Made by a program: the position numbers and the translations under genes
Assembly (NCBI GenBank): GCA_025350105.1
Contig: JANXYJ010000180.1
Coordinates: 1-36,253, forward strand
Length of the DNA: 36,253 nucleotides
Reading direction: 5' to 3'
From: Terriglobia bacterium
GTDB lineage: Bacteria > Acidobacteriota > Terriglobia > Bryobacterales > Bryobacteraceae
Notes under the pieces: generated by a model
Told to the model about the DNA's origin: nothing
What the model saw: the letters and a program-made list of their open reading frames with translations, nothing else
Databases searched by the model: none
Part shown: piece by piece, positions 15,434 through 36,253 of the stretch
How the letters are laid out: the number at the start of each line of letters is the position of its first letter
How positions within the stretch are numbered: the stretch's first letter is position 1

Positions 15434-18073
15434 CTAGTCCGGTCCCCAGGCAGCAGCCGTGAAGTTGAAAGGTGTCAAGTGGAAAGGTGTTAGATTCAAT
15501 GCCGACCAACCAAACGCGGTCCCGCCATTTTCGGCCTCACCATCCGTCTCAAAGCGCAGCCGCCGGCCATCGCTGTGAACCGTCGTCAACCCATTTTGAT
15601 CCGTCCTCATGATGGCCACGTGCCGCTCCTGCAAACGCTGCACCACACTAGCGTGCGGATGCCCGAAGGAGTTTTCGAAGCCCGCCGAAATCAGCGCGAT
15701 CGACGGCGAAACCGCATCCAGAAAAGGCTCCGTCGTAGAGGTTTTCGATCCGTGATGGCCTACTTTCAGAACATCCACGTGGCGCAGCCGGCCCTCGCCC
15801 AGCAGACGGTACTCCACCGGGCTTTCCATGTCTCCGGTCAGCAAAAAGGAATTGCGGCCGTAATCAATACGAAATGCCAGCGAGTCGTTATTGCCCGATC
15901 TCGCAGCAACGTAATCCTCCGCCGGCGACAACACCTCAATCAGCGCGCCCGAATATTGGAAAGGATCGCCCTCGCGCAGCTCAATCACGTTCACACCCAA
16001 TTGGGCCGCACGTTCCAGCAACGCGGGCGAGGGGTTCGCGCCCACCCACATCTCCAGGGGACGAAAATTTTCCAGCAGCGCCGCCGCCCCTCCAATATGA
16101 TCTTCGTGCGCGTGCGTCGCCACCAACACGTCTAAGCGCCGAATGCCCCGGCTCCATAAATACGGCGAGACCACATCTTCGCCGATATTGAGATTCGGTT
16201 TGCGCCGCGTTTTCGCGTCGCCGTATTGCAGCACGCCGCCGCTGTCAATCACCACACGCTTGCCTTCAGGAAAAACCAGCAGAAGACTGTCGCCCTGCCC
16301 CACGTCAATGCTGGTCAGTTCCAACTCCCCTGGCCTGATGTTCGCCGGCCAAGGCTGCCACAGCAACACCCCGAAAAGCGCTCCCACTGCAGCAATAACC
16401 GGCCAACGGAGCCAGCGGACCCACCGGATAGGCGCGTCCCTCGGTAGATACACCAACGCCGCAAACAAAAGCAGCGCTCCACTGAATCCCACCGCCAGCC
16501 ACAGTGGAGGATCGGCAATCCGCCAGTTCGGCTCTAGTCGCGCATGCCAATCCGCGGTGCGGGCGGCAATCTTTAACAGCCATCCCGCCAGCGCCGCCAC
16601 CCAATGCCAGCGCGTGAAAATCGCCAGAAAACCCAGCGGCACCACCAACTCCAGCAGTGGAGCGATGATCAAATTCGCCGTCAAGCCCGTAAACGAAATG
16701 CGATGAAAATACTGCGCCATCGGCAACGCCAAGCCAATTTGGATCACCGCGGAAATCGCTGCGATTTCCAGGCCAAAGAAAACCGCCCGCCACGGCGCCG
16801 CCAGCATCAGCACGCACCAGTTCACTGGTGGTCGTACACCGATCCACCCGGCGCAATCGCGAAGCGTTTCGCCCAGCAGCCTTAGCTCCACGCGAAATTG
16901 CGCCACCCTGGGCGGCAAATGCAGATCTAGCGCAGTATCGTTGATCGCTCGCAAGCCGTGGGCAAACGGTTCCCAGGTCGCCGCTAAGAACGGCGCCGCC
17001 AAAGCGCCAATCGCGGCAACAGAAAGAAATGAAAGCTGAAAGCTGGCGTCCATCAGTTCGCCCGGGTCCCACAGCAAGAACACAATCGCCACTGCAGCCA
17101 GCAAATTCAAAACGCGGCCTCTGCGAAAAAAGAACCGCGCCATCAAATACAGCGTGAACCCCGCCGCCGCCCGCGCCACCGGAGGGGTGAATCCCGAAAC
17201 CAACGCATAGAGCCACGCCGCCATTCCCGTCACCACCAACGCCGGCATTTCCGGCAGGCCGAACAGCCTCAGCAGCGCCAACAAGACTCCGGCCAACACG
17301 GCCACATGTGTTCCCGAAATCACCAGCGCATGAAACGTCCCGGTGCGCCGGAAATTTTCGGTCCACACTTTTTCCAGATTCGCCGTATCCCCCAGCAAAA
17401 TCGCCCGCATCATGCCGGATGCGTAGCCATCATCTAAATACAACTGGTCAATTCTTCCCAGCGCCGCCCCGCGAATGGCAAACAACGCCTTCATCGCGCG
17501 CGATCCACACTCACCCGGCAACACCTCTACCGTGCTCCCCCGCCGTATCGACGCCGTCCAATAGATCTGCTGGCGCGCCAAATAGCCCTGGTAGTCGAAC
17601 GCGCCAGGATTGCGAAAATTCCTTGGCGCACGAATCCGCGCTTCAATCGCCACACGCTGTCCGTACCGGAGACTGGGAGCAGCCGCATCGCCATCCGCCT
17701 GAATCGGTAAGGTCACCGTCGCGCGTGCGCCTTTGGCCAGTTCCAGGGTGAATTTCTCGCGATCCGGAAAGAACGCGCTGGGCTCCACCACGCAGCCATC
17801 CAAACCCACCGTTTCGCGCGAACTGGCATCAATCACCGGTCTCGGCCCAGGCCGATGCCACGCTTGCGAAATCGCACCGATAAACAGCAGGCAGGCAGTC
17901 ACACACACCCGACGCAACCAGCGGGCGCGCGACACCACCGCAAAAATCAAAAACGCCAACGCGGGCCAACCGGCGTCCCAAACCGAAAAGCCCAGCCGCG
18001 CGGAATCCAGCCAGCGTGCGGCGACAATCCCGGCGATGATGGCCATCAGTGGCGCAACCAGTGGATCTCGCAT
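15434..18073 (-). CDS. comEC: ComEC/Rec2 DNA-uptake channel protein
   Basis: Large inner-membrane protein that forms the channel for single-stranded DNA entry during transformation. The 879 residues contain the N-terminal DUF4131/OB-like region with membrane segments, a multi-spanning Competence domain (about 220-540; G-x-x-H-A-L-V-I-S-G-T-H-V-A-V) and a metallo-beta-lactamase domain. The latter has the metal motif T-H-A-H-E-D-H-I-G-G near residue 650 and later D-V-L-K-V-G-H-H-G-S. ATG 18073 begins MRDPLVAPLMAIIAG, the natural start; a longer frame to 18136 adds no homology. A TACATT box 8 bases upstream suggests a leaderless message. The C-terminal tail holds a short duplicated LTPF segment. 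No other competence gene is nearby. Confidence 0.9.
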   Translation of the reverse strand: MRDPLVAPLMAIIAGIVAARWLDSARLGFSVWDAGWPALAFLIFAVVSRARWLRRVCVTACLLFIGAISQAWHRPGPRPVIDASSRETVGLDGCVVEPSAFFPDREKFTLELAKGARATVTLPIQADGDAAAPSLRYGQRVAIEARIRAPRNFRNPGAFDYQGYLARQQIYWTASIRRGSTVEVLPGECGSRAMKALFAIRGAALGRIDQLYLDDGYASGMMRAILLGDTANLEKVWTENFRRTGTFHALVISGTHVAVLAGVLLALLRLFGLPEMPALVVTGMAAWLYALVSGFTPPVARAAAGFTLYLMARFFFRRGRVLNLLAAVAIVFLLWDPGELMDASFQLSFLSVAAIGALAAPFLAATWEPFAHGLRAINDTALDLHLPPRVAQFRVELRLLGETLRDCAGWIGVRPPVNWCVLMLAAPWRAVFFGLEIAAISAVIQIGLALPMAQYFHRISFTGLTANLIIAPLLELVVPLGFLAIFTRWHWVAALAGWLLKIAARTADWHARLEPNWRIADPPLWLAVGFSGALLLFAALVYLPRDAPIRWVRWLRWPVIAAVGALFGVLLWQPWPANIRPGELELTSIDVGQGDSLLLVFPEGKRVVIDSGGVLQYGDAKTRRKPNLNIGEDVVSPYLWSRGIRRLDVLVATHAHEDHIGGAAALLENFRPLEMWVGANPSPALLERAAQLGVNVIELREGDPFQYSGALIEVLSPAEDYVAARSGNNDSLAFRIDYGRNSFLLTGDMESPVEYRLLGEGRLRHVDVLKVGHHGSKTSTTEPFLDAVSPSIALISAGFENSFGHPHASVVQRLQERHVAIMRTDQNGLTTVHSDGRRLRFETDGEAENGGTAFGWSALNLTPFHLTPFNFTAAAWGPD
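15463..15492. repeat. 15-bp tandem duplication at the comEC 3' end
   Basis: Two 15-base units (15463-15477 and 15478-15492) differ at two positions and encode the doubled L-T-P-F segment in the last residues of ComEC. Confidence 0.8.
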
Positions 18074-18126
18074 GCCTACAAAATGTAGTCCGGTAGGCCG
18101 GCGAAAGTTCTCAGCAAAAACCGGTC

Positions 18127-18181
18127 CCAAAAACAATTACCGCGCCGGAACCTCCCTTAGCAGGCGGTCACGGCGCGGTAA
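18127..18181 (-). terminator. Long perfect-stem hairpin upstream of comEC
   Basis: An 11-bp perfect stem (18137-18147 with 18171-18181) encloses a 23-base loop. On the minus strand it is followed by TTGTTTTTGGG. It lies 64 bases before the comEC start and after another terminator, so it may stop residual transcription or act as an attenuator. Confidence 0.65.
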
Positions 18182-27485: not shown

Positions 27486-27698
27486 CTAAGGCATTTGCAC
27501 CAGGGTAAGCCGGAACAAGCCGAGTTCGCTGCCGTAGCAAATGCTTTCGTGGCAGCCTGAACCACAGACAAAATAGACATCGTAAGCACCGTTTGAGCCC
27601 CGGAAGGGATCGAGGCCCATGCACCAGCGGCAAAATCTGGCGGCGGTATTGCACCACCATTCGTCCCGTCGCGTGCAGCGTTGCGCGAGCTCAGTCAG
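27486..27698 (-). CDS. Putative cysteine-rich small protein without a standard start codon
   Basis: On the minus strand a frame closed upstream by TGA (27716-27714) and ending TAG (27488-27486) encodes a protein-like sequence of about 70 residues. Seven cysteines stand in metal-site-like spacing: R-C-T, W-W-C-N-T, F-C-R-W-C-M-G, F-V-C-G-S-G-C-H and S-I-C-Y-G. The composition (WW, GLDPFRG, GAYDVYF) is unlike a random antisense frame. There is no ATG, GTG or TTG before C26; CTG 27698 is the only start-like codon. A frameshift near the 5' end or a rare CTG start would explain it. I do not recognise it. It lies opposite the region before the GNAT gene. Confidence 0.4.
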   Translation of the reverse strand: MTELAQRCTRRDEWWCNTAARFCRWCMGLDPFRGSNGAYDVYFVCGSGCHESICYGSELGLFRLTLVQMP

Positions 27699-27727
27699 GC
27701 TGCGCCGGGCTCAGCAATAATAGGGAG

Positions 27728-28174
27728 GTGTCCGCAAACTCCACCTCCAACAAACGTGCTCGACAAAAGGCGGCTGTCCGCGTCCGCCCGGCGGAAAGAA
27801 GCGACATGGCCGCCATCCGCGGCCTTATCAAACAATTCCCCAGACAACTGGCGCAACAAAATCTGCCGCGGGTAAGCTCCTTTTTCGTGGCTTATGTTGG
27901 TGCCATCCAGACCGGCAGCGAAGCTCGCCTGGTGGGTTGTTGTGCGCTTCAGTTTTATTCCAAGCGTCTGTCGGAAGTCCGCAGTCTGGCGGTTCACCCC
28001 GACTTTCACGACCGCGGGGTGGCGTCACAATTGGTGGAGTGCTGCAAGCAACGCGCGCTCGCGCGCGGCATTAAGGAGCTTTTCGCCGTCACCAGCCAAA
28101 CCGAATTCTTTCAGCGGCTAGGGTTCGCTACCTTCCGCCGGGAAAAAATAGCCATGTTTTTCGAAGTGAACTAG
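27728..28174 (+). CDS. GNAT family N-acetyltransferase (ArgA-like)
   Basis: The 148-residue enzyme would transfer an acetyl group from acetyl-CoA to an amine. It shows V-R-P-A-E-R-S-D at the start of the fold, C-C-A-L-Q-F-Y, the core S-L-A-V-H-P-D-F-H-D-R-G-V-A-S-Q-L-V (the pyrophosphate-binding loop is R-G-V-A-S) and F-F-Q-R-L-G-F near the end. The order resembles the N-acetylglutamate synthase-like subgroup of arginine synthesis, but that is only a suggestion. The frame is open back to 27593. GTG 27728 gives normal length, and the TAATAG element 5 bases before it resembles the leaderless starts of this window. The gene is the last before the island boundary. Confidence 0.75.
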   Translation: MSANSTSNKRARQKAAVRVRPAERSDMAAIRGLIKQFPRQLAQQNLPRVSSFFVAYVGAIQTGSEARLVGCCALQFYSKRLSEVRSLAVHPDFHDRGVASQLVECCKQRALARGIKELFAVTSQTEFFQRLGFATFRREKIAMFFEVN

Positions 28175-28212: not shown

Positions 28213-28261
28213 GGTGCGCCCGACAAGATTCGAACTTGTGGCCTTTTGCTTCGGAGGCAAG
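28213..28261 (-). other. 3' half of tRNA-Arg(CCG): island attachment-site duplicate
   Basis: On the minus strand this segment reads as the 3' half of a tRNA: anticodon loop CTCCGAA (28256-28250, anticodon CCG) with flanking stem arms, 5-base variable region AGGCC, a perfect T arm ACAAG-TTCGAAT-CTTGT (28239-28223), acceptor strand CGGGCGC and ACC (28222-28213). The matching 5' half (acceptor GCGCCCG, D arm) is absent upstream. Integrases often use exactly this part of a tRNA gene, leaving an intact tRNA at one end and a 3' duplicate at the other. It is therefore the left attachment site of the island to the right. Confidence 0.75.
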
Positions 28262-28689
28262 AGGCAACGAAAAATCAAAGACTTAGCACCGGTGCCCTTC
28301 GTCGCTACCAATTGCGAAATGTTGCCAGTTATCAAACACTTACGCGAGAAAGCAACACGCGAACTAGCAAGCGGTGACACTCCTTCTATGCACAGAGTGG
28401 GCACAAAAATGGGCACAGCCCCGTCTCGAAGGGATGAAGGTGATGGGGCATTTAAACGGGTTGGCAATCTCTGCTTTGCCCCTCCACGGCCCGAATAGTT
28501 GATCGCCGTGTAACGTCGTAACACTGCGCCGGATCACGAGACATCCTAAAGGGCCTAATGACTGTCTCCGATACTTTTTCAGGTGAGTTATGCGACGTCT
28601 GCTGTTCGCAAAAGTAACCATGTGAGCCCAGCGAACAGCCTGCTCAACCAGTTAGTTTGCCGACAATGTCCTAAACTCGAAAGATACCC
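28262..28689. other. Gene-poor left end of the island
   Basis: About 430 bases between the tRNA fragment and hsdM hold no gene I can support. A short plus-strand frame that ends at 28498 (SMHRVGTKMGTA) vaguely resembles the C-terminal tail of some tyrosine integrases and may be a remnant. The promoter of the hsd operon should lie at 28540-28685, but no convincing -35/-10 pair was found. Confidence 0.4.
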
Positions 28690-30228
28690 ATGCTTACTGG
28701 AGAAATCCGCTCACAAATTGATCAGATTTGGAATGCGTTTTGGACGGGTGGGATTTCGAACCCGCTGGAGGTCATCGAGCAGATCACGTACTTGCTGTTC
28801 CTGCGCCGGCTCGACGAGTTGGAGACGCTGGAGGAGTTAAAGGCAACCCGGCTGAAGCGGGCCATGGAACGGCGAATCTTTCCAGAGGGCCAAGACGATC
28901 GCAAGCGGCCGTATGATCAGTTTCGCTGGTCTCGCTTTAAGCATCTGGAAGCGCGAGAAATGTATGCCGTTGTCTCGGAGCATGTTTTTCCATTCCTGCG
29001 CACGCTCGGTGGCGATGATTCCACGTACGCGCAGCATATGAAGGATGCGCGGTTCACCATTCCTACGCCGCAGTTGCTGGCGAAGGTTGTGGATCTTCTG
29101 GATCACGTTCCCATGGAGGATCGCGATACCAAGGGCGACATCTACGAATACATGCTGGGCAAGATCGCCAGCGCGGGGCAGAATGGGCAGTTCCGCACGC
29201 CGCGGCACATCATCCGGCTGATGGTGGAGTTGTTGGCGCCTAAACCCACGGATGTGATTTGCGATCCAGCTTGCGGCACCTGCGGTTTTTTAGTGAGCGC
29301 CGGCGAATATCTTCGCGAGCGGCATCCAGAGATTTTCACCAGCGCCAAGTCGCGCGAGCATTTTCATCACGGGCTATTTCACGGCTTTGACTTCGACAAC
29401 GTGATGTTGCGCATTGGCAGCATGAACATGTTGCTGCATGGCGTGGAGAATCCGGACATCCGCTACCGCGATTCGCTTTCGCAGGATCATGCCGGGGAGG
29501 AAGAAAAGTACACAGTGGTGTTGGCGAATCCGCCGTTTGCGGGGTCGCTTGATTACGAACAATGCGCCAAGGATCTGCTGCAAATCGTAAAGACTAAGAA
29601 GACGGAGCTTCTATTTCTGGCCTTGTTCCTGCGGCTGCTGAAGCCCGGCGGGCGCGCGGCGGTGATTGTGCCGGATGGCGTGCTGTTCGGCAGCAGCAAA
29701 GCGCACAAGGCTCTGCGGGAGATGCTGGTGGAAAAGCAGAAGCTGGACGCCGTGATTTCGCTGCCCAGCGGAGTCTTCCGCCCCTACGCGGGAGTCTCCA
29801 CCGCGATTCTGCTTTTCACCAAGACCAATTCCGGCGGTACGGATCACGTCTGGTTTTACGATGTAGAAGCCGATGGAATTTCGCTGGACGACAAGCGAGT
29901 GCCTCTGTTGCCCGAGGAGAAGTTAGGTTCCGTCCCGGCGCAGGCGCTTTCGGCTGATGAGCACGCGAAGAACAATCTGCCGGATATCGTTACTCGATGG
30001 GCTCAGCGTGAGGGAGCGGAACGCGATCACCCGAGGACGGCCCAGAGCTTTTGCGTTCCGAAAGCTGACATTGAGGCGGCGGGGTACGACTTGAGCATCA
30101 ATCGCTACAAAGAGGTTGTGCACGAGCAGGTGGATCATCTGCCGCCGAAGCAGATTTTGGCGGAGTTGGTGGCGCTGGAGGACGAGATTCAAAAGGGCTT
30201 AAAGGAACTAGAGGCGACGCTGGGATGA
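28690..30228 (+). CDS. hsdM: Type I restriction-modification DNA methyltransferase subunit
   Basis: The 512-residue N6-adenine methyltransferase subunit has an N-terminal HsdM helical domain (about 5-130; I-W-N-A-F-W-T-G-G-I-S-N-P and I-T-Y-L-L-F-L-R-R-L-D). The methylase core carries the SAM-binding motif D-P-A-C-G-T (192-197) and the catalytic N-P-P-F (280-283). The C-terminus is helical for contact with HsdS. It methylates the target adenines and, with HsdS alone, forms the modification enzyme. All key residues are present. Its stop overlaps the hsdS start (ATGA), so both are coupled. It is the first gene of the hsdMSR operon on the island. Confidence 0.95.
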   Translation: MLTGEIRSQIDQIWNAFWTGGISNPLEVIEQITYLLFLRRLDELETLEELKATRLKRAMERRIFPEGQDDRKRPYDQFRWSRFKHLEAREMYAVVSEHVFPFLRTLGGDDSTYAQHMKDARFTIPTPQLLAKVVDLLDHVPMEDRDTKGDIYEYMLGKIASAGQNGQFRTPRHIIRLMVELLAPKPTDVICDPACGTCGFLVSAGEYLRERHPEIFTSAKSREHFHHGLFHGFDFDNVMLRIGSMNMLLHGVENPDIRYRDSLSQDHAGEEEKYTVVLANPPFAGSLDYEQCAKDLLQIVKTKKTELLFLALFLRLLKPGGRAAVIVPDGVLFGSSKAHKALREMLVEKQKLDAVISLPSGVFRPYAGVSTAILLFTKTNSGGTDHVWFYDVEADGISLDDKRVPLLPEEKLGSVPAQALSADEHAKNNLPDIVTRWAQREGAERDHPRTAQSFCVPKADIEAAGYDLSINRYKEVVHEQVDHLPPKQILAELVALEDEIQKGLKELEATLG

Positions 30229-31424
30229 CAACTCAGTGGCCTTTAGTTAGCCTGAATGACCTTAGTTTAGCGATTGATTACGGCCATACGGCGTCGGCTT
30301 CAAACGACCCATCGGGGCCGAAGTTTCTTCGGATTACTGACCTGCGTGACGAGGGTGTCGACTGGGCACAAGTACCTTTTTGTTCGTGTAGTGCTTCAGC
30401 AGAGTTGGAAACCCAATTACAACCGGGCGACATTGTTTTCGCCAGAACCGGAGCAACCACAGGAAAGAGTCACTTGATAAAGGAGTGTCCGAATCGTGCG
30501 ATCTTCGCCTCCTATCTGATCCGCGTACGGCTGTCCAATGAAGCTGACCCCAACTATGTAGCGCACTTTTTTCGTACGCCAGATTATTGGTCGCAAATTT
30601 CACAAAGCTCAACAGGAACGGCACAACCTGGAGTGAACTCAACTAATCTCAGGCGTCTACGGATTCCCATTCCACGGCTGGACGAGCAGCGGCGGATTGC
30701 GGCGATTCTGGATCAGGCCGACGCCCTCCGCGCCAAACGTCAACGTTCATCTATGCTCTTAAAAAAGGCGCTGCATGCGATTTTTGATAACCTTTTTGGT
30801 GATTTGGTCAAGAACGCGAATCATTGGCCCCACGGAAACCTCGTCGAGCTTTGCTCCGATCCAACAGATATTAGGTGCGGCCCATTCGGCACGCAACTAG
30901 GACGTGAAGAATTTGTTTCAACTGGCGTTCCTTTGTGGGGAATAAAACACGTCAATTCTCAATTCGCCTCGCTAACAACGGAATTTGTGACTAAGCGGAA
31001 AGCGGACGCCCTAAAGCAGTACACGCTTCTTGAAGGCGATCTTGTTATGACACGCAAAGGCACAATTGGTAATTGCGCTATTTACCCTCAGGGCCTACCG
31101 GTTGGTATTATGCATTCGGATCTGCTGCGCATCCGAATGGACTCGCGGCGTGTAAACCCGCGTTTCCTCTGCCATCAACTTCAGTACAGTCGAAACGTTG
31201 CGGGCCAAATTTCGTTAATCAGCGGGGGAGCGGTCATGGCCGGAATAAACGTCACGAAACTTAAGAATCTGGTGGTGTGCCTTCCCCCTCTGGAGCTCCA
31301 GCATCAGTTCGACGCGATTTTCGAAAAGCAGCAGTGTTTGGCCGTGTCACAGAAAGCGAGCTTGCAGTACCTCAATCGCCTGCAAGCCTCTCTCCAACAC
31401 CGCGCGTTCCACGGAGAACTGTAG
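30225..31424 (+). CDS. hsdS: Type I restriction-modification specificity subunit
   Basis: The 399-residue subunit sets the DNA target. Two target-recognition domains (about 1-145 and 200-345) are each followed by a conserved helical spacer: I-P-I-P-R-L-D-E-Q-R-R-I-A-A-I-L-D-Q-A-D (about 146-195) and C-L-P-P-L-E-L-Q-H-Q-F-D-A-I-F (about 350-399). The two recognition domains differ, so a bipartite asymmetric target is expected; the sequence recognised cannot be read. Codon use in the recognition domains is less GC-biased than in hsdM, common for exchanged hsdS modules. The gene is intact, with no inverted repeats for phase variation. Confidence 0.92.
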   Translation: MTTQWPLVSLNDLSLAIDYGHTASASNDPSGPKFLRITDLRDEGVDWAQVPFCSCSASAELETQLQPGDIVFARTGATTGKSHLIKECPNRAIFASYLIRVRLSNEADPNYVAHFFRTPDYWSQISQSSTGTAQPGVNSTNLRRLRIPIPRLDEQRRIAAILDQADALRAKRQRSSMLLKKALHAIFDNLFGDLVKNANHWPHGNLVELCSDPTDIRCGPFGTQLGREEFVSTGVPLWGIKHVNSQFASLTTEFVTKRKADALKQYTLLEGDLVMTRKGTIGNCAIYPQGLPVGIMHSDLLRIRMDSRRVNPRFLCHQLQYSRNVAGQISLISGGAVMAGINVTKLKNLVVCLPPLELQHQFDAIFEKQQCLAVSQKASLQYLNRLQASLQHRAFHGEL

Positions 31425-31427
31425 CGC

Positions 31428-34400
31428 ATGAGCCAGTTTCGTTTCCTACAAGCTGAATGGCCGGACATGTTCATCTCCGCGGGCAAAGCGGAGTTGACGG
31501 TTCATCCGGATCCCCGCACGGCTTGTTTTTACGCTCGGCGGACGCTGGAACTGGCTGTTTACTGGTTGTACCAAGCTGAGGGTTCACTGCATTCGCCGTA
31601 TCAGGATAGTTTGAGTGCACTGATCCATGAGCCGACATTCAAATCTCTGCTCGGCGACACGTTGCACGCGAAGGTCAGAGTGATTAAGGACCTGGGGAAT
31701 CTGGCGGTCCATAGCACCAAGCGAGTGCGGCCGGAGGATTCTCTAGCTGCGGTTCGTGAGCTATTCCATTTTTGCTATTGGCTGGCGCGGACGTACGCTC
31801 GTACTCCGGCGAGCAGGCCTCCCGCGATCGCCGTGTTCAACGCGGACGTTTTACCGAAGACCGCTCTGGTGCCAACACAAACAGCGTCACAGCTTCAGAA
31901 GCTGACGGAAGAACTTTCGGCGAAAGACGCCAAGTTGGTGGAGTTTGGAACTTTGCAGGCCGCGCTCACTGCAGAGCTGGAGCGCTTGCGCGCGGAGGTT
32001 GCGGAGGCCAAGAAGCAGAACGAAAAGCAGCCGGACACGCACGATTACTCCGAAGCCGAAACGCGGGATTTCTTCATCGATTTGCTGTTGAAGGAAGCCG
32101 GTTGGCCGCTGGATCAGGCTCGGGACCGCGAGTACGAAGTTTCAGGAATGCCCAATGCGCAAGGCAAAGGCTATGTGGACTACGTGCTATGGGGCGATGA
32201 TGGGAAACCTTTGGGTTTGGTGGAAGCGAAGCGAACCAAGCGGAGTCCCATGGCGGGACAGCAGCAGGCGAAGCTCTACGCCGATTGTTTGGAGAAACAG
32301 TTTGGCCAGCGGCCGGTGATCTTCTACACCAACGGCTACGAACATTGGCTATGGGACGATGCCAGCTATCCGCCGCGCACGGTGCAAGGCTTCTTTAAGA
32401 AAAGTGAGCTGGAATTGATGATCCAGCGGCGGACCACGCGGGCTCCGCTGGCCTCAGCGCCAATCGATCCCTCTATTGTTGAGCGCTATTACCAGCGAAG
32501 GGCGATTCTGAGGGTGACGGAGGCGTTCGAAAAGAACAATGAACGTCGATCCCTATTGGTGATGGCGACTGGAGCCGGTAAAACGCGGACGGTGATCGCT
32601 TTGTGCGACGTTCTGATGCGCTGCAACTGGGTGAAGCGGGTTCTGTTTCTGGCGGATCGCGTGGCGCTGGTCAATCAAGCGGTGAATGCGTTCAAAACGC
32701 ACTTGCCGGCTTCCGCTCCGGTGAATTTAGTGAACGAGAAAAACACCGAAGGCCGCGTGTACGTTTCTACTTATCCGACAATGATGGGGCTGATCGATGA
32801 ATCTTCTGACGATCAACGCCGATTCGGCGTGGGGCATTTTGATTTGATTGTGATCGATGAAGCACACCGGTCGGTGTATCAAAAGTACGGGGCGATCTTC
32901 GATTATTTCGACTCATTTCTGGTGGGATTGACGGCAACGCCCAAAAGCGAAGTGGATCGCAATACGTATCGTCTATTCAACCTGGAGTCTGGCGTTCCAA
33001 CGGATGTCTATGACATCGAGGATGCCGTGAAGGATAAGTTCCTGGTGCCGCCGCTGGCAGTATCTGTGCCATTGAAATTCCAGAGACAGGGCATCGCCTA
33101 CGACGAACTTTCCGAAGAAGAGAAAGACGAATGGGACGCTCTGGAATGGGAAGAAGATGGTGGGGTTCCAGACCGGGTGGAAGCTCAGGCCGTCAACAAA
33201 TGGTTGTTCAATGAGGACACTGTGGACAAGGTGCTAGAGCACCTGATGAGCAGCGGCCAAAAGGTGGACGGCAACGACAAGTTAGGCAAGACGATAGTCT
33301 TCGCCAAGAATCAGGACCACGCAGACTTCATTGAACGCCGATTCAACGCCAACTATCCTCATCTAAAAGGCGCGTTCGCGCGTGTGATCACGTTTAAAAC
33401 GGAATACGCGCAAAGCCTGATCGACGCATTTTCTAGCCCAACGAAACTGCCGCAGATCGCCATTTCGGTGGACATGCTGGATACAGGCATCGATGTTCCA
33501 GACGTGGTGAACCTGGTCTTCTTTAAGTTGGTTCGCTCCAAGACGAAGTTTTGGCAGATGATTGGCAGAGGAACGAGGCTGCGGCCTGACTTGTTCGCGC
33601 CTGGAAAGAACAAAGAGTTTTTCTATATCTTCGACTATTGCCAAAATCTAGAGTTCTTCAGCCAGAATCCAAACACAAGCGATGGATCAAGCGGCGATTC
33701 CTTGAGCAAGAAGCTGTTTACTGCTCGCGTCGAACTAGTCGGCGAGTTGGACAAAGACTCAGGGCACGAGTCGCAGGATGAGAAGCAGACTGGACTTCGC
33801 GTGGACACGGCCGAGCGCCTTCGCGCCGAAGTAGCTGCCATGAACGTGAACAATTTCCTGGTCCGCCCCAAGCGGCTTTACGTAGAACGCTATTCTCAGC
33901 CAGAGGCATGGGCAAAGCTTGCTCTGGAGCAACAGACCGAACTGGCGCACGAAGTTGCGGGCCTACCTTCAGAATTGACCGACCCCGATCTGGAAGCAAA
34001 GCTCTTTGATCTTTTAATCTTGCGGCTTCAGTTGGCACTTCTACGAACGGAACCATCGTTCTCTGGCTTACGGAAGCGGGTAACAGACATCGCCGGGTTG
34101 TTAGAGGAAATGGAAAGCATTCCGATGATCCGCGAACAAATGGTGCTGATCCAGGAAATTCAAACGGACGAATTCTGGCAAGATGTCACCACGCCGATTC
34201 TGGAAAACGTGCGTAAGAAGCTGCGGGGACTCGTCAAACTGATAGAGAAGACGCGACGCGAGCCGGTCTACTCGGATTTCACAGATGAAATTGGAGTCGG
34301 CCAAGAAACGCAGTTACCCGGATTCAGCCAAGCGACGTTTACGCGATTTCGTGAAAAGGCTCGCGCTTTTTTGCGCGAACACGAAGATCATCCGGCAATA

Positions 34401-34805
34401 CACAAGCTTCGCTCAAATGAGCCGCTTACGGCATACGACTTTTTGGAGTTGGAACGGCTTCTGCTGCAAGCGGGAATCGGAACCGCTCAGGATTTGATTC
34501 AGGCGAAGGAAACTAGTGAGGGTTTCGGTCTGTTTCTGCGCTCATTGGTCGGAATGGATCGTGGCGCAGCCAAGAGCGCCTTCGCCAAGTTCATCGATCG
34601 CCGGAGTCCTTCCAGCCAACAGATCGAGTTTATTGATCTGCTTGTGAATCACCTGACTGAGCAAGGTTACATTGATGCGGCGCGACTGTACGAGTCACCC
34701 TTTACCGATGTGAACCCTCGGGGTGTAGACGGCGTGTTTCCTTCTGAGCAGGTGAATGAATTGCTTGGCGTCTTAACTGACATTCGCCAGCACGCAGCGG
34801 CCTAG
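31428..34805 (+). CDS. hsdR: Type I restriction endonuclease/translocase subunit with N-terminal DUF4145 domain
   Basis: The 1125-residue subunit starts with a DUF4145 domain (about 1-130; C-F-Y-A-R-R-T-L-E-L and D-L-G-N-L-A-V-H-S) and a coiled coil (about 155-205). The PD-(D/E)xK nuclease follows: D251, E266 and K268 in V-E-A-K-R, then Q-Q-Q-A-K-L-Y. Next is the SF2 motor with Walker A A-T-G-A-G-K-T-R (379-386), D-E-A-H (477-480), motif III L-T-A-T-P and motif VI Q-M-I-G-R-G-T-R. The end matches the EcoEI-type C-terminal domain. Type I R subunits pull DNA and cut far from the target when it is unmethylated. It begins 3 bases after hsdS. Confidence 0.95.
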   Translation: MSQFRFLQAEWPDMFISAGKAELTVHPDPRTACFYARRTLELAVYWLYQAEGSLHSPYQDSLSALIHEPTFKSLLGDTLHAKVRVIKDLGNLAVHSTKRVRPEDSLAAVRELFHFCYWLARTYARTPASRPPAIAVFNADVLPKTALVPTQTASQLQKLTEELSAKDAKLVEFGTLQAALTAELERLRAEVAEAKKQNEKQPDTHDYSEAETRDFFIDLLLKEAGWPLDQARDREYEVSGMPNAQGKGYVDYVLWGDDGKPLGLVEAKRTKRSPMAGQQQAKLYADCLEKQFGQRPVIFYTNGYEHWLWDDASYPPRTVQGFFKKSELELMIQRRTTRAPLASAPIDPSIVERYYQRRAILRVTEAFEKNNERRSLLVMATGAGKTRTVIALCDVLMRCNWVKRVLFLADRVALVNQAVNAFKTHLPASAPVNLVNEKNTEGRVYVSTYPTMMGLIDESSDDQRRFGVGHFDLIVIDEAHRSVYQKYGAIFDYFDSFLVGLTATPKSEVDRNTYRLFNLESGVPTDVYDIEDAVKDKFLVPPLAVSVPLKFQRQGIAYDELSEEEKDEWDALEWEEDGGVPDRVEAQAVNKWLFNEDTVDKVLEHLMSSGQKVDGNDKLGKTIVFAKNQDHADFIERRFNANYPHLKGAFARVITFKTEYAQSLIDAFSSPTKLPQIAISVDMLDTGIDVPDVVNLVFFKLVRSKTKFWQMIGRGTRLRPDLFAPGKNKEFFYIFDYCQNLEFFSQNPNTSDGSSGDSLSKKLFTARVELVGELDKDSGHESQDEKQTGLRVDTAERLRAEVAAMNVNNFLVRPKRLYVERYSQPEAWAKLALEQQTELAHEVAGLPSELTDPDLEAKLFDLLILRLQLALLRTEPSFSGLRKRVTDIAGLLEEMESIPMIREQMVLIQEIQTDEFWQDVTTPILENVRKKLRGLVKLIEKTRREPVYSDFTDEIGVGQETQLPGFSQATFTRFREKARAFLREHEDHPAIHKLRSNEPLTAYDFLELERLLLQAGIGTAQDLIQAKETSEGFGLFLRSLVGMDRGAAKSAFAKFIDRRSPSSQQIEFIDLLVNHLTEQGYIDAARLYESPFTDVNPRGVDGVFPSEQVNELLGVLTDIRQHAAA

Positions 34806-34806
34806 A

Positions 34807-35187
34807 TCATTCCAACTGTTTAAGAACCGCTTGCTTCACTGTAGGCGAAAGCGGAACCCATCGAGTAATACCGTTCGGGTGCTTGTACTTAACCTGCTCG
34901 GCTAGGCGTTGTCGTTTTTTGAGAACCCAAGCGTAGGTGTTTTTCGGCCATCTCTCAGCGGCTTCAGAGACAGACATCCCCATTTTTCGGGCATTCGCCA
35001 TGCGAATTGGACGTGTCAGTGGGCCGATACAATCCACTAATTCCGCGACGCCGACTACTGCACCCGAGCCGCTTTCAATTAGACCTATCAATCCTCTAAT
35101 ATTGCATCGGCCTTGTCGAATCTCCCAGGACTTTACACCGTCTAAGATGTCTCGCATCGGTTCCGGTTTTATGATCAAAGCTTTCAT
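34807..35187 (-). CDS. ASCH domain protein
   Basis: The 126-residue protein has an ASCH (PUA-like) fold from its first residues: M-K-A-L-I-I-K-P-E-P-M-x-x-I-L-D-G-V-K-S-W-E-I-R, then I-G-L-I and V-V-G-V-A-E-L-V. The K-x-W-E-I-R block is the family signature and lines the substrate pocket. ASCH proteins bind or act on RNA or modified nucleosides; one group removes the acetyl of N4-acetylcytidine, another cuts RNA. It is convergent with hsdR, with one base between the stops, and is the only cargo gene besides the restriction system. Whether it helps defence, counters it or serves RNA biology is open. Confidence 0.8.
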   Translation of the reverse strand: MKALIIKPEPMRDILDGVKSWEIRQGRCNIRGLIGLIESGSGAVVGVAELVDCIGPLTRPIRMANARKMGMSVSEAAERWPKNTYAWVLKKRQRLAEQVKYKHPNGITRWVPLSPTVKQAVLKQLE

Positions 35188-35232
35188 TGTTGCGTGGAAA
35201 CTATTGTAAAGCCCAATGGAACCTAAATACAG

Positions 35233-36192
35233 CTAAATCGCTACGCGCAGCCGGATCGAATCATTCGGAGCATTCACCAAATCCTGTTTGGTTCCAAGGT
35301 ACCGCTCTGTCGTCTGAACTGACGCATGTCCCAGCAACAATTGAATCTGCTCTAGCTCGCCGCCCGCGGCTCGGCAAAGCTTGGCGCAGCTCCGGCGTAG
35401 ATCATGCGGGGCAAGAGAAGGAACACCGATCGCTTCCGCGTATGATTTCACAATGTGCCAAACGACTCGCTCAGTCAGGTCGCCGAGTAGGAGCCCATTC
35501 CGACTGACTGAACGGAATATGCGTTCTTCACGAATTACTGCAGCATCTGTCCACGCGTCGATCGTCACCTTCACCCAAGCCGGTACAGGTGTCGTACGAA
35601 TGCGGCCGTGCTTGCCAACCAGATCAACGATGCACCACCGGCCATCGCGCTGTTGAATGTGTCCAAAGGTTAGCGCAGCTAGTTCTGACCTCCTCAATCC
35701 GCAACCGACCAAAAGTGCAAGCACAGCGCGGTCGCGTAGTCCTTTCAAGGTCGACGGATTCGGCGCACCCAAGAGCGCCTCAGCCTGCCGTAGCGAAAGC
35801 CAATTGCCGGTTCGCACACCGATCGTCTTTGCGCCTTTGACGCGCCGGATTCCCTGCGCCAAATCAGGCGCCAGAAGTCCGTTATCAGCAGCTTCAGTAG
35901 CCAACTTACGAATCGCCGACATGCGAATGATGATCGATGACGAGCCTAGGCCGCGAGCCTCTAGGGATACCCGCCACGCGCTAACGGTGGCCTTGGTGAA
36001 GCCGGGCCGCGGCTCCTGCTGGAACCATGCCATGAACTCGTCCAGCGCCATGTTGTACACGCGTTTCGTAATGGGCGATGAAACGCTATCCAGCACCATC
36101 GTCTTCAATCTTTGCCATTCTGCGAGCTTCGGAATTGCCGCTAAATCATTCATAATCTGTCCGTTATTGGGCATTATCGTTAGCTGGGTCAT
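35233..36192 (-). CDS. Tyrosine recombinase (site-specific integrase)
   Basis: The 319-residue integrase has an N-terminal core-binding SAM-like domain (about 22-108) and a catalytic domain. Catalytic residues are all present: R167 in C-G-L-R-R-S-E-L, K194, H263 and R266 in P-H-D-L-R-R, H289 in L-L-G-H-A, and nucleophile Y298 in T-T-E-R-Y-L-G. It resembles XerC/D-type and island integrases and should drive integration into the tRNA-Arg 3' end. A GGGAGG site about 10 bases before ATG 36192 supports the start, but the frame stays open upstream to the window edge (E-E-I-F-G-E-K-E-L-D), so a longer N-terminus or a separate in-frame gene is possible. Confidence 0.9.
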   Translation of the reverse strand: MTQLTIMPNNGQIMNDLAAIPKLAEWQRLKTMVLDSVSSPITKRVYNMALDEFMAWFQQEPRPGFTKATVSAWRVSLEARGLGSSSIIIRMSAIRKLATEAADNGLLAPDLAQGIRRVKGAKTIGVRTGNWLSLRQAEALLGAPNPSTLKGLRDRAVLALLVGCGLRRSELAALTFGHIQQRDGRWCIVDLVGKHGRIRTTPVPAWVKVTIDAWTDAAVIREERIFRSVSRNGLLLGDLTERVVWHIVKSYAEAIGVPSLAPHDLRRSCAKLCRAAGGELEQIQLLLGHASVQTTERYLGTKQDLVNAPNDSIRLRVAI

Positions 36193-36253
36193 GTTGAACC
36201 TTACCTCCCTGTGGTTGGAGACATCAAGCTCCTTCTCGCCGAAGATTTCTTCG

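Follow-up and report, generated by a model that had tools for sequence, protein, structure and literature searches.

A likely tRNA-Arg(CCG)-integrated element with a type I restriction-modification operon in a Terriglobia bacterium, and a neighboring recombinase that is probably not its integrase

Does a displaced 3' half of a tRNA-Arg(CCG) gene in the genome of a Terriglobia bacterium mark one end of an integrative element and, if so, which recombinase brought the element there? The sequence analyzed here (the window) is one entire contig of 36,253 bases from a 206-contig draft assembly (GenBank GCA_025350105.1, contig JANXYJ010000180.1; G000:C73 in our numbering), and the available sequence ends at position 36253. 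An initial annotation, made from the letters of this contig alone, had described an integrative element with the tRNA half as its distal end, and this proposal is supported by an anatomy of attachment (att) sites that is common to many sites in the order. The region from 28213 to at least 36253 is very likely the attR part of an element integrated at tRNA-Arg(CCG), with both the cognate integrase and the intact tRNA probably located off the contig. The features on which this assignment rests are the following.

28213..28260, minus strand: attR core, 3' half of tRNA-Arg(CCG), spanning anticodon stem-loop through acceptor end (match to intact tRNAs)
28275..28287, plus strand: conserved attR motif TCAANNACTTAGC, 123 bp before the arm repeat (site comparison)
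28383..28391, plus strand: conserved CTTCTATGC, 15 bp before the arm repeat (site comparison)
28398..28417, plus strand: arm-type direct repeat TGGGCACA-N4-TGGGCACA, putative integrase arm sites (order-wide recurrence; predicted binding)

The tRNA half, initially placed on the minus strand at 28213-28261, is real and comprises 48 bp at 28213-28260. Its first 47 bases match the intact tRNA-Arg(CCG) genes of two genomes of the same genus, G001 and G015, with two mismatches, which form a base pair with one another in the T-stem. Among 61 genomes (the genome itself and 60 relatives), the 47-base pattern, allowing up to 3 mismatches, is present in the genome itself, G001 and G015: the former contains a single copy of the core, namely, the fragment in the window; G001 has one intact tRNA-Arg(CCG), and G015 has an intact tRNA-Arg(CCG) plus a separate 3' half. 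Could the fragment have arisen by chance, or could it be what is left of a tRNA gene after decay, with no link to integration? Rfam does not report 28213-28260 as a tRNA, and its RNA fold is no better than that of shuffled sequences (z -0.41), both of which can be expected for half a tRNA, whereas the 47-base match with two mutually pairing T-stem mismatches, the motifs at fixed distances and the arm repeat make such an origin extremely improbable. A displaced 3' tRNA fragment, the mark of a tRNA-integrated genomic island, is found here, and it is very probable that an integrative element has its distal attachment site (attR) at 28213-28260.

The arm repeat, located 137 bp inside the tRNA fragment, came to light through comparison of the flanks with the intact copy in G015, where one arm repeat lies 138 bp from the tRNA fragment and another one 69 bp from the intact tRNA-Arg(CCG). 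A single match in the window is unremarkable by itself (at up to 3 mismatches, one match against 0.5 expected, with at least one in 40 of 100 shuffled sequences; the match in the window is exact), so that the weight rests on the order-wide comparison. The exact repeat was found in 39 of 257 genomes of the order (56 rows; the reversed control gave 0), and merging one overlapping pair left 55 distinct sites. At 26 of them, the distance from the repeat to the end of an intact tRNA is 67-71 bp (the attL class); at 10 sites, the window included, a T-loop lies 168-170 bp away on the other side (the attR class), the distance being exactly 168 bp at 8 of them. The T-loop distance was no part of the pattern used to find the repeats, and the 168-170 bin holds 10 sites on the attR side, the next-best 5-bp bin holds 2, and the others average about 0.1. 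The T-loop in the window lies 168 bp from the arm repeat, as it does at 7 other sites, and the range of 168-170 bp takes in 9 others.

The two shorter motifs show comparable regularity. The first, TCAANNACTTAGC, occurs once in the window, lies 123-124 bp ahead of the repeat at 7 other sites, and is exact in 6 of the 10 attR-class sites; the second, CTTCTATGC, shares its 15-bp offset with 7 other sites and is exact in 5 of the 10. The window thus contains the core and the arm repeat at the fixed attR-side spacing that characterizes this att family, and from this recurrence we infer that the TGGGCACA-N4-TGGGCACA repeats are arm-type integrase binding sites. The arm repeat is absent from the genome of G001. 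At four tRNA-Thr(CGT) sites (L203, L205, L216 and L220), the tRNA is 46-48 bp away from the repeat instead of 69 bp, which suggests a subgroup with a different arm spacing.

What enters the tRNA genes on the opposite, attL side? The targets at the 26 attL-class sites are Arg(CCG) (9 sites, the commonest target seen), Pro(CGG) (6), Thr(CGT) (5), Arg(ACG) and Arg(TCG) (2 each), and Lys(CTT) and Thr(TGT) (1 each). The reading frame before the repeat comprises at least 368 open codons at 12 of these sites and runs off the contig at 3; where the frame is intact, the repeat itself is translated, as GHxxGH, near the integrase C-terminus. A complete element in G255 (contig C39) has both ends at tRNA-Arg(TCG), with a 47-bp exact direct repeat and 8.4 kb from core to core, and the reading frame of its 421-aa tyrosine recombinase extends into the tRNA. 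At L215 (10036-11301), the integrase frame of the complete element passes the repeat and enters the tRNA gene on the opposite strand. Because the integrase frame extends into the tRNA gene, integration would change the integrase C-terminus. Integrase genes that extend across attP are named for Mx8 and SSV in the Islander paper (PMC4383910); similarly, the integrase frame takes in the arm repeat at 12 of the 26 attL ends and the G255 frame continues into the tRNA, but here the overlap is seen in relatives only, the window lacking that integrase.

The free form of such an element is approached most closely by a locus in G201 (contig C37; L235), where two arm repeats, one with a single mismatch, surround one core identical to the 48 bases in the window. 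This is an attP-like site or a junction of tandem elements; a free circular form was considered and dropped, given that there is no terminal overlap and a tandem junction is equally likely. The junction adjoins an integrase gene and a DUF3987 primase-like gene.

Taken together, these comparisons make it reasonably probable, if less so than the assignment of the window itself, that the window is one end of a previously undescribed order-wide family (the order probably being Bryobacterales, in the Acidobacteriota) that targets anticodon loops, in which at least seven tRNA genes would serve as targets for a single family of integrases and attP would carry two parallel arm repeats, one of them within the C-terminal codons of the integrase. 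Under the model that we favor, the element would have entered tRNA-Arg(CCG) by recombination with the half of the gene that runs from the anticodon loop to the 3' end; a tyrosine integrase of the attL family (421-484 aa as listed, with a GHxxGH tail encoded by the arm repeat) would have crossed the element core into the tRNA, a crossover by which the attL end would have regained a complete tRNA while the displaced 3' half would have remained at 28213-28260.

The initial annotation also pointed to a tyrosine integrase at the other end of the region, a gene which is listed here as follows.

35233..36192, minus strand: 319-aa Xer-like tyrosine recombinase, probably a passenger (Pfam, NCBIfam, locus comparison)

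Pfam bears out the identification as a tyrosine recombinase; the part of the claim that makes this protein the integrase of the island probably does not hold, because the family is seldom found near tRNAs and the attL ends carry another family. The best matches to the 319-aa recombinase in named genomes come from metagenome-assembled genomes of Terriglobia, Bryobacterales and Bryobacteraceae, which by itself makes this group the probable host. Relatives are also present on plasmids (the seven best at 47-56% identity) and in eight viral contigs (L240-L247; 43-59% identity), and therefore this is a mobile family; the patterns used revealed no relative of the attL-type integrase among viral contigs. 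This mobility, the location of the gene at the contig end opposite the tRNA fragment, read from the side where the tRNA is expected, and the observation that simple Xer-like recombinases sometimes move elements (PMC8138268, where most phages and conjugative elements are said to carry integrases with an arm-binding domain and some to carry simple Xer-like ones) would fit a scenario in which the 319-aa protein is the island integrase, with the intact tRNA-Arg immediately to the right of 36253.

We consider this scenario unlikely on three counts. First, among 78 loci of the 319-aa family kept from 286 candidate relatives, only 7 contain any tRNA, and one contains it within 500 bp, although many of these loci are short and some tRNAs may be missed. 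Second, the copies on contigs C63 and C107 of the same genome share with the window the recombinase gene and at most 38 bp before it. Third, of the 39 loci searched, 25 match the attL-type integrase of G255 (23 distinct places, with the query's own included) and none matches the 319-aa protein at E 1e-5; the two proteins are 22% identical over 233 residues. The 319-aa protein is probably a second recombinase of a different family, either a passenger or part of another insertion. Given that the own assembly contains no more than remote matches to the attL-type integrase and that the 319-aa protein belongs to another family, the cognate integrase is probably encoded off the contig; by analogy with the attL ends, one would expect another integrase gene, of about 1.2 kb, after the contig end and before the tRNA.

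Several observations concern the distribution of the two recombinase families. The same genome has relatives of the 319-aa recombinase gene on C63 and C107, at 81% DNA identity, and a partial one on C106, at 71%; the copies in the window, C63 and C106 are located near contig ends, as repeats would be. At L069, L084 and L121, two facing copies surround several kilobases of other genes; convergent recombinase pairs flanking cargo were considered as a general arrangement and rejected, being confined to a few loci. Remote integrase-like matches in the same genome (C130:802-1296, C72:436-1260 and C72:12462-12620) lie near tRNA-Pro, tRNA-Lys and tRNA-Cys genes, and the loci on C130 and C72 are possibly further islands.

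Between the two ends considered so far lie the cargo genes, which are listed here along with the gene that flanks the element on the outside.

27593..28174, plus strand: GNAT acetyltransferase, flank outside the element (open reading frame list, Pfam)
28690..30228, plus strand: hsdM, type I modification subunit, cargo (Pfam, PADLOC)
30225..31424, plus strand: hsdS, type I specificity subunit, cargo (Pfam, PADLOC)
31428..34805, plus strand: hsdR, type I restriction subunit (EcoEI/EcoAI-like), cargo (Pfam, NCBIfam, PADLOC)
34807..35187, minus strand: ASCH-like small protein (Pfam match below the cut-off; phage homologue)

Pfam and PADLOC clearly support the identities proposed at first for hsdM, hsdS and hsdR. 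The minus strand had been assigned to all five genes, which is correct for the ASCH-like gene and the recombinase, but not for the three hsd genes, which are on the plus strand. HsdM, HsdS and HsdR domains are encoded together in one operon, as in type I restriction-modification systems with an EcoEI/EcoAI-like HsdR, and the expected domains are present, but the scores fall below the NCBIfam cut-offs. The arm repeat and the start of the operon are 272 bp apart, and no other boundary was seen; located beside attR, the system would shield the cell, and the element with it, from foreign DNA. The ASCH assignment is plausible: the Pfam match falls short of the family cut-off (19.3 against 21.2 bits), but the protein is 35.7% identical to a Vibrio phage protein annotated as ASCH, and its 20 matching phage records are all Vibrio phages, with one annotated as ASCH among the matches listed. 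The idea that this gene forms part of a recombinase module was discarded, with matches at 0 of the 78 recombinase loci. In the flank, homology of the GNAT protein in the closest relatives starts mostly near residue 60, and therefore its true start is probably later than the one listed. The four 2-kb steps from 28001 have a G+C content of 53.3-55.3%, and the earlier steps one of 54.7-61.0%, the lower values from 28001 onward being mild support for an island. In the left part of the window, positions 15434-18136 encode a ComEC-like competence protein.

Can the other side of the element be located? ARAGORN detects no intact tRNA within the window, and a pattern of the 5' half of tRNA-Arg(CCG), at up to 3 mismatches, has no match in the own assembly. 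The GNAT gene was used as a guide to an empty site: a tRNA-Arg was found in 0 of 9 GNAT neighborhoods in relatives (11.7-20 kb each; one contains a tRNA-Ser), and comparison of these 9 neighborhoods with 11 other proteins from the window yielded no matches. In G001, the tRNA-Arg(CCG) lies between genes for an ABC-2-type permease and a purB-like protein (names from reading the translations), the latter with only a weak match in the own assembly. An intact tRNA-Arg beyond 36253, as foreseen by the initial annotation, is possible.

Several points weigh against the assignment of the region to an element of this att family. Nineteen of the 55 repeat sites lie outside both of the tight distance classes, some of them with other spacings or with a recognizable fragment at a different distance, and at 11 of the 26 attL-class sites, including the tRNA-Arg(CCG) site in G015, a short frame of at most 144 codons precedes the repeat. 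An intact tRNA-Arg(CCG) was not found among the 31 tRNAs recovered from the own assembly, all of them typed, but several isoacceptors are missing from this set, so that the absence of a tRNA says little. For the permease adjacent to tRNA-Arg(CCG) in G001 and G015, the best match in the own assembly is on C179 (60% identity), with no tRNA in 12 kb, so the original neighborhood was not recovered. The remote matches to the attL-type integrase in the own assembly reach at best E 3.4e-7 and 26% identity. Finally, hsdM, hsdS and hsdR have matches at 0 of the 39 loci searched, many of which span only about 3 kb; the far boundary of the element is unseen, and the hsd genes could be a later insertion inside or beside it.

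Some of these points would also fit a different history, in which the tRNA half and the att motifs are an old remnant, and the hsd operon and the recombinase arrived separately, for example, via an element driven by the 319-aa protein. Such a history would account for the failure to see the cognate integrase in the own assembly beyond the remote matches, for the extra copies of the 319-aa family in the assembly and the occurrence of this family on plasmids and viral contigs, for the content of the related elements, those examined carrying primase-type genes, and for the lack of hsd matches at the 39 loci searched. Defence genes as regular cargo of the related elements were considered and not upheld: among 10 frames scanned out of the 46 listed, some of which may be chromosomal, PADLOC matched one, a TPR protein. 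The undecayed state of the attR core and motifs, and the start of the operon 272 bp from the arm repeat with no further boundary apparent, argue against the remnant, which we regard as a minor possibility, albeit a more credible one than the 319-aa protein acting as the island integrase.

The preferred assignment, an attR-side part of an element with an integrase of the attL family, belongs to a well-known type of element; what is new is this member and the corrected account of its integrase. Islands in tRNA genes with a displaced 3' fragment and an anticodon-centered crossover are well described, as laid out in the Islander work (PMC4383910). The element in the window resembles them in the displaced 3' tRNA half, the core that stretches from the anticodon loop to the 3' end and the cargo between the ends, and the att family likewise employs a tyrosine integrase; it differs in that only one end is contained in the contig, where the intact tRNA and the cognate integrase are not visible. 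Among the papers listed from the open-licence literature on arm-type tyrosine recombinases, tRNA islands and Acidobacteria islands, we found no description of the TGGGCACA att family, and a search of that literature for TGGGCACA together with integrase and tRNA returned only a paper on a soybean retrotransposon.

The geometry of the arm sites makes a one-ended island on a draft contig readable, identifying attR without the intact tRNA, and offers a simple signature in the sequence by which similar elements, with their cargo, can be sought in a little-studied group of soil bacteria. It also carries a warning: an island need not owe its presence to the nearest recombinase gene.

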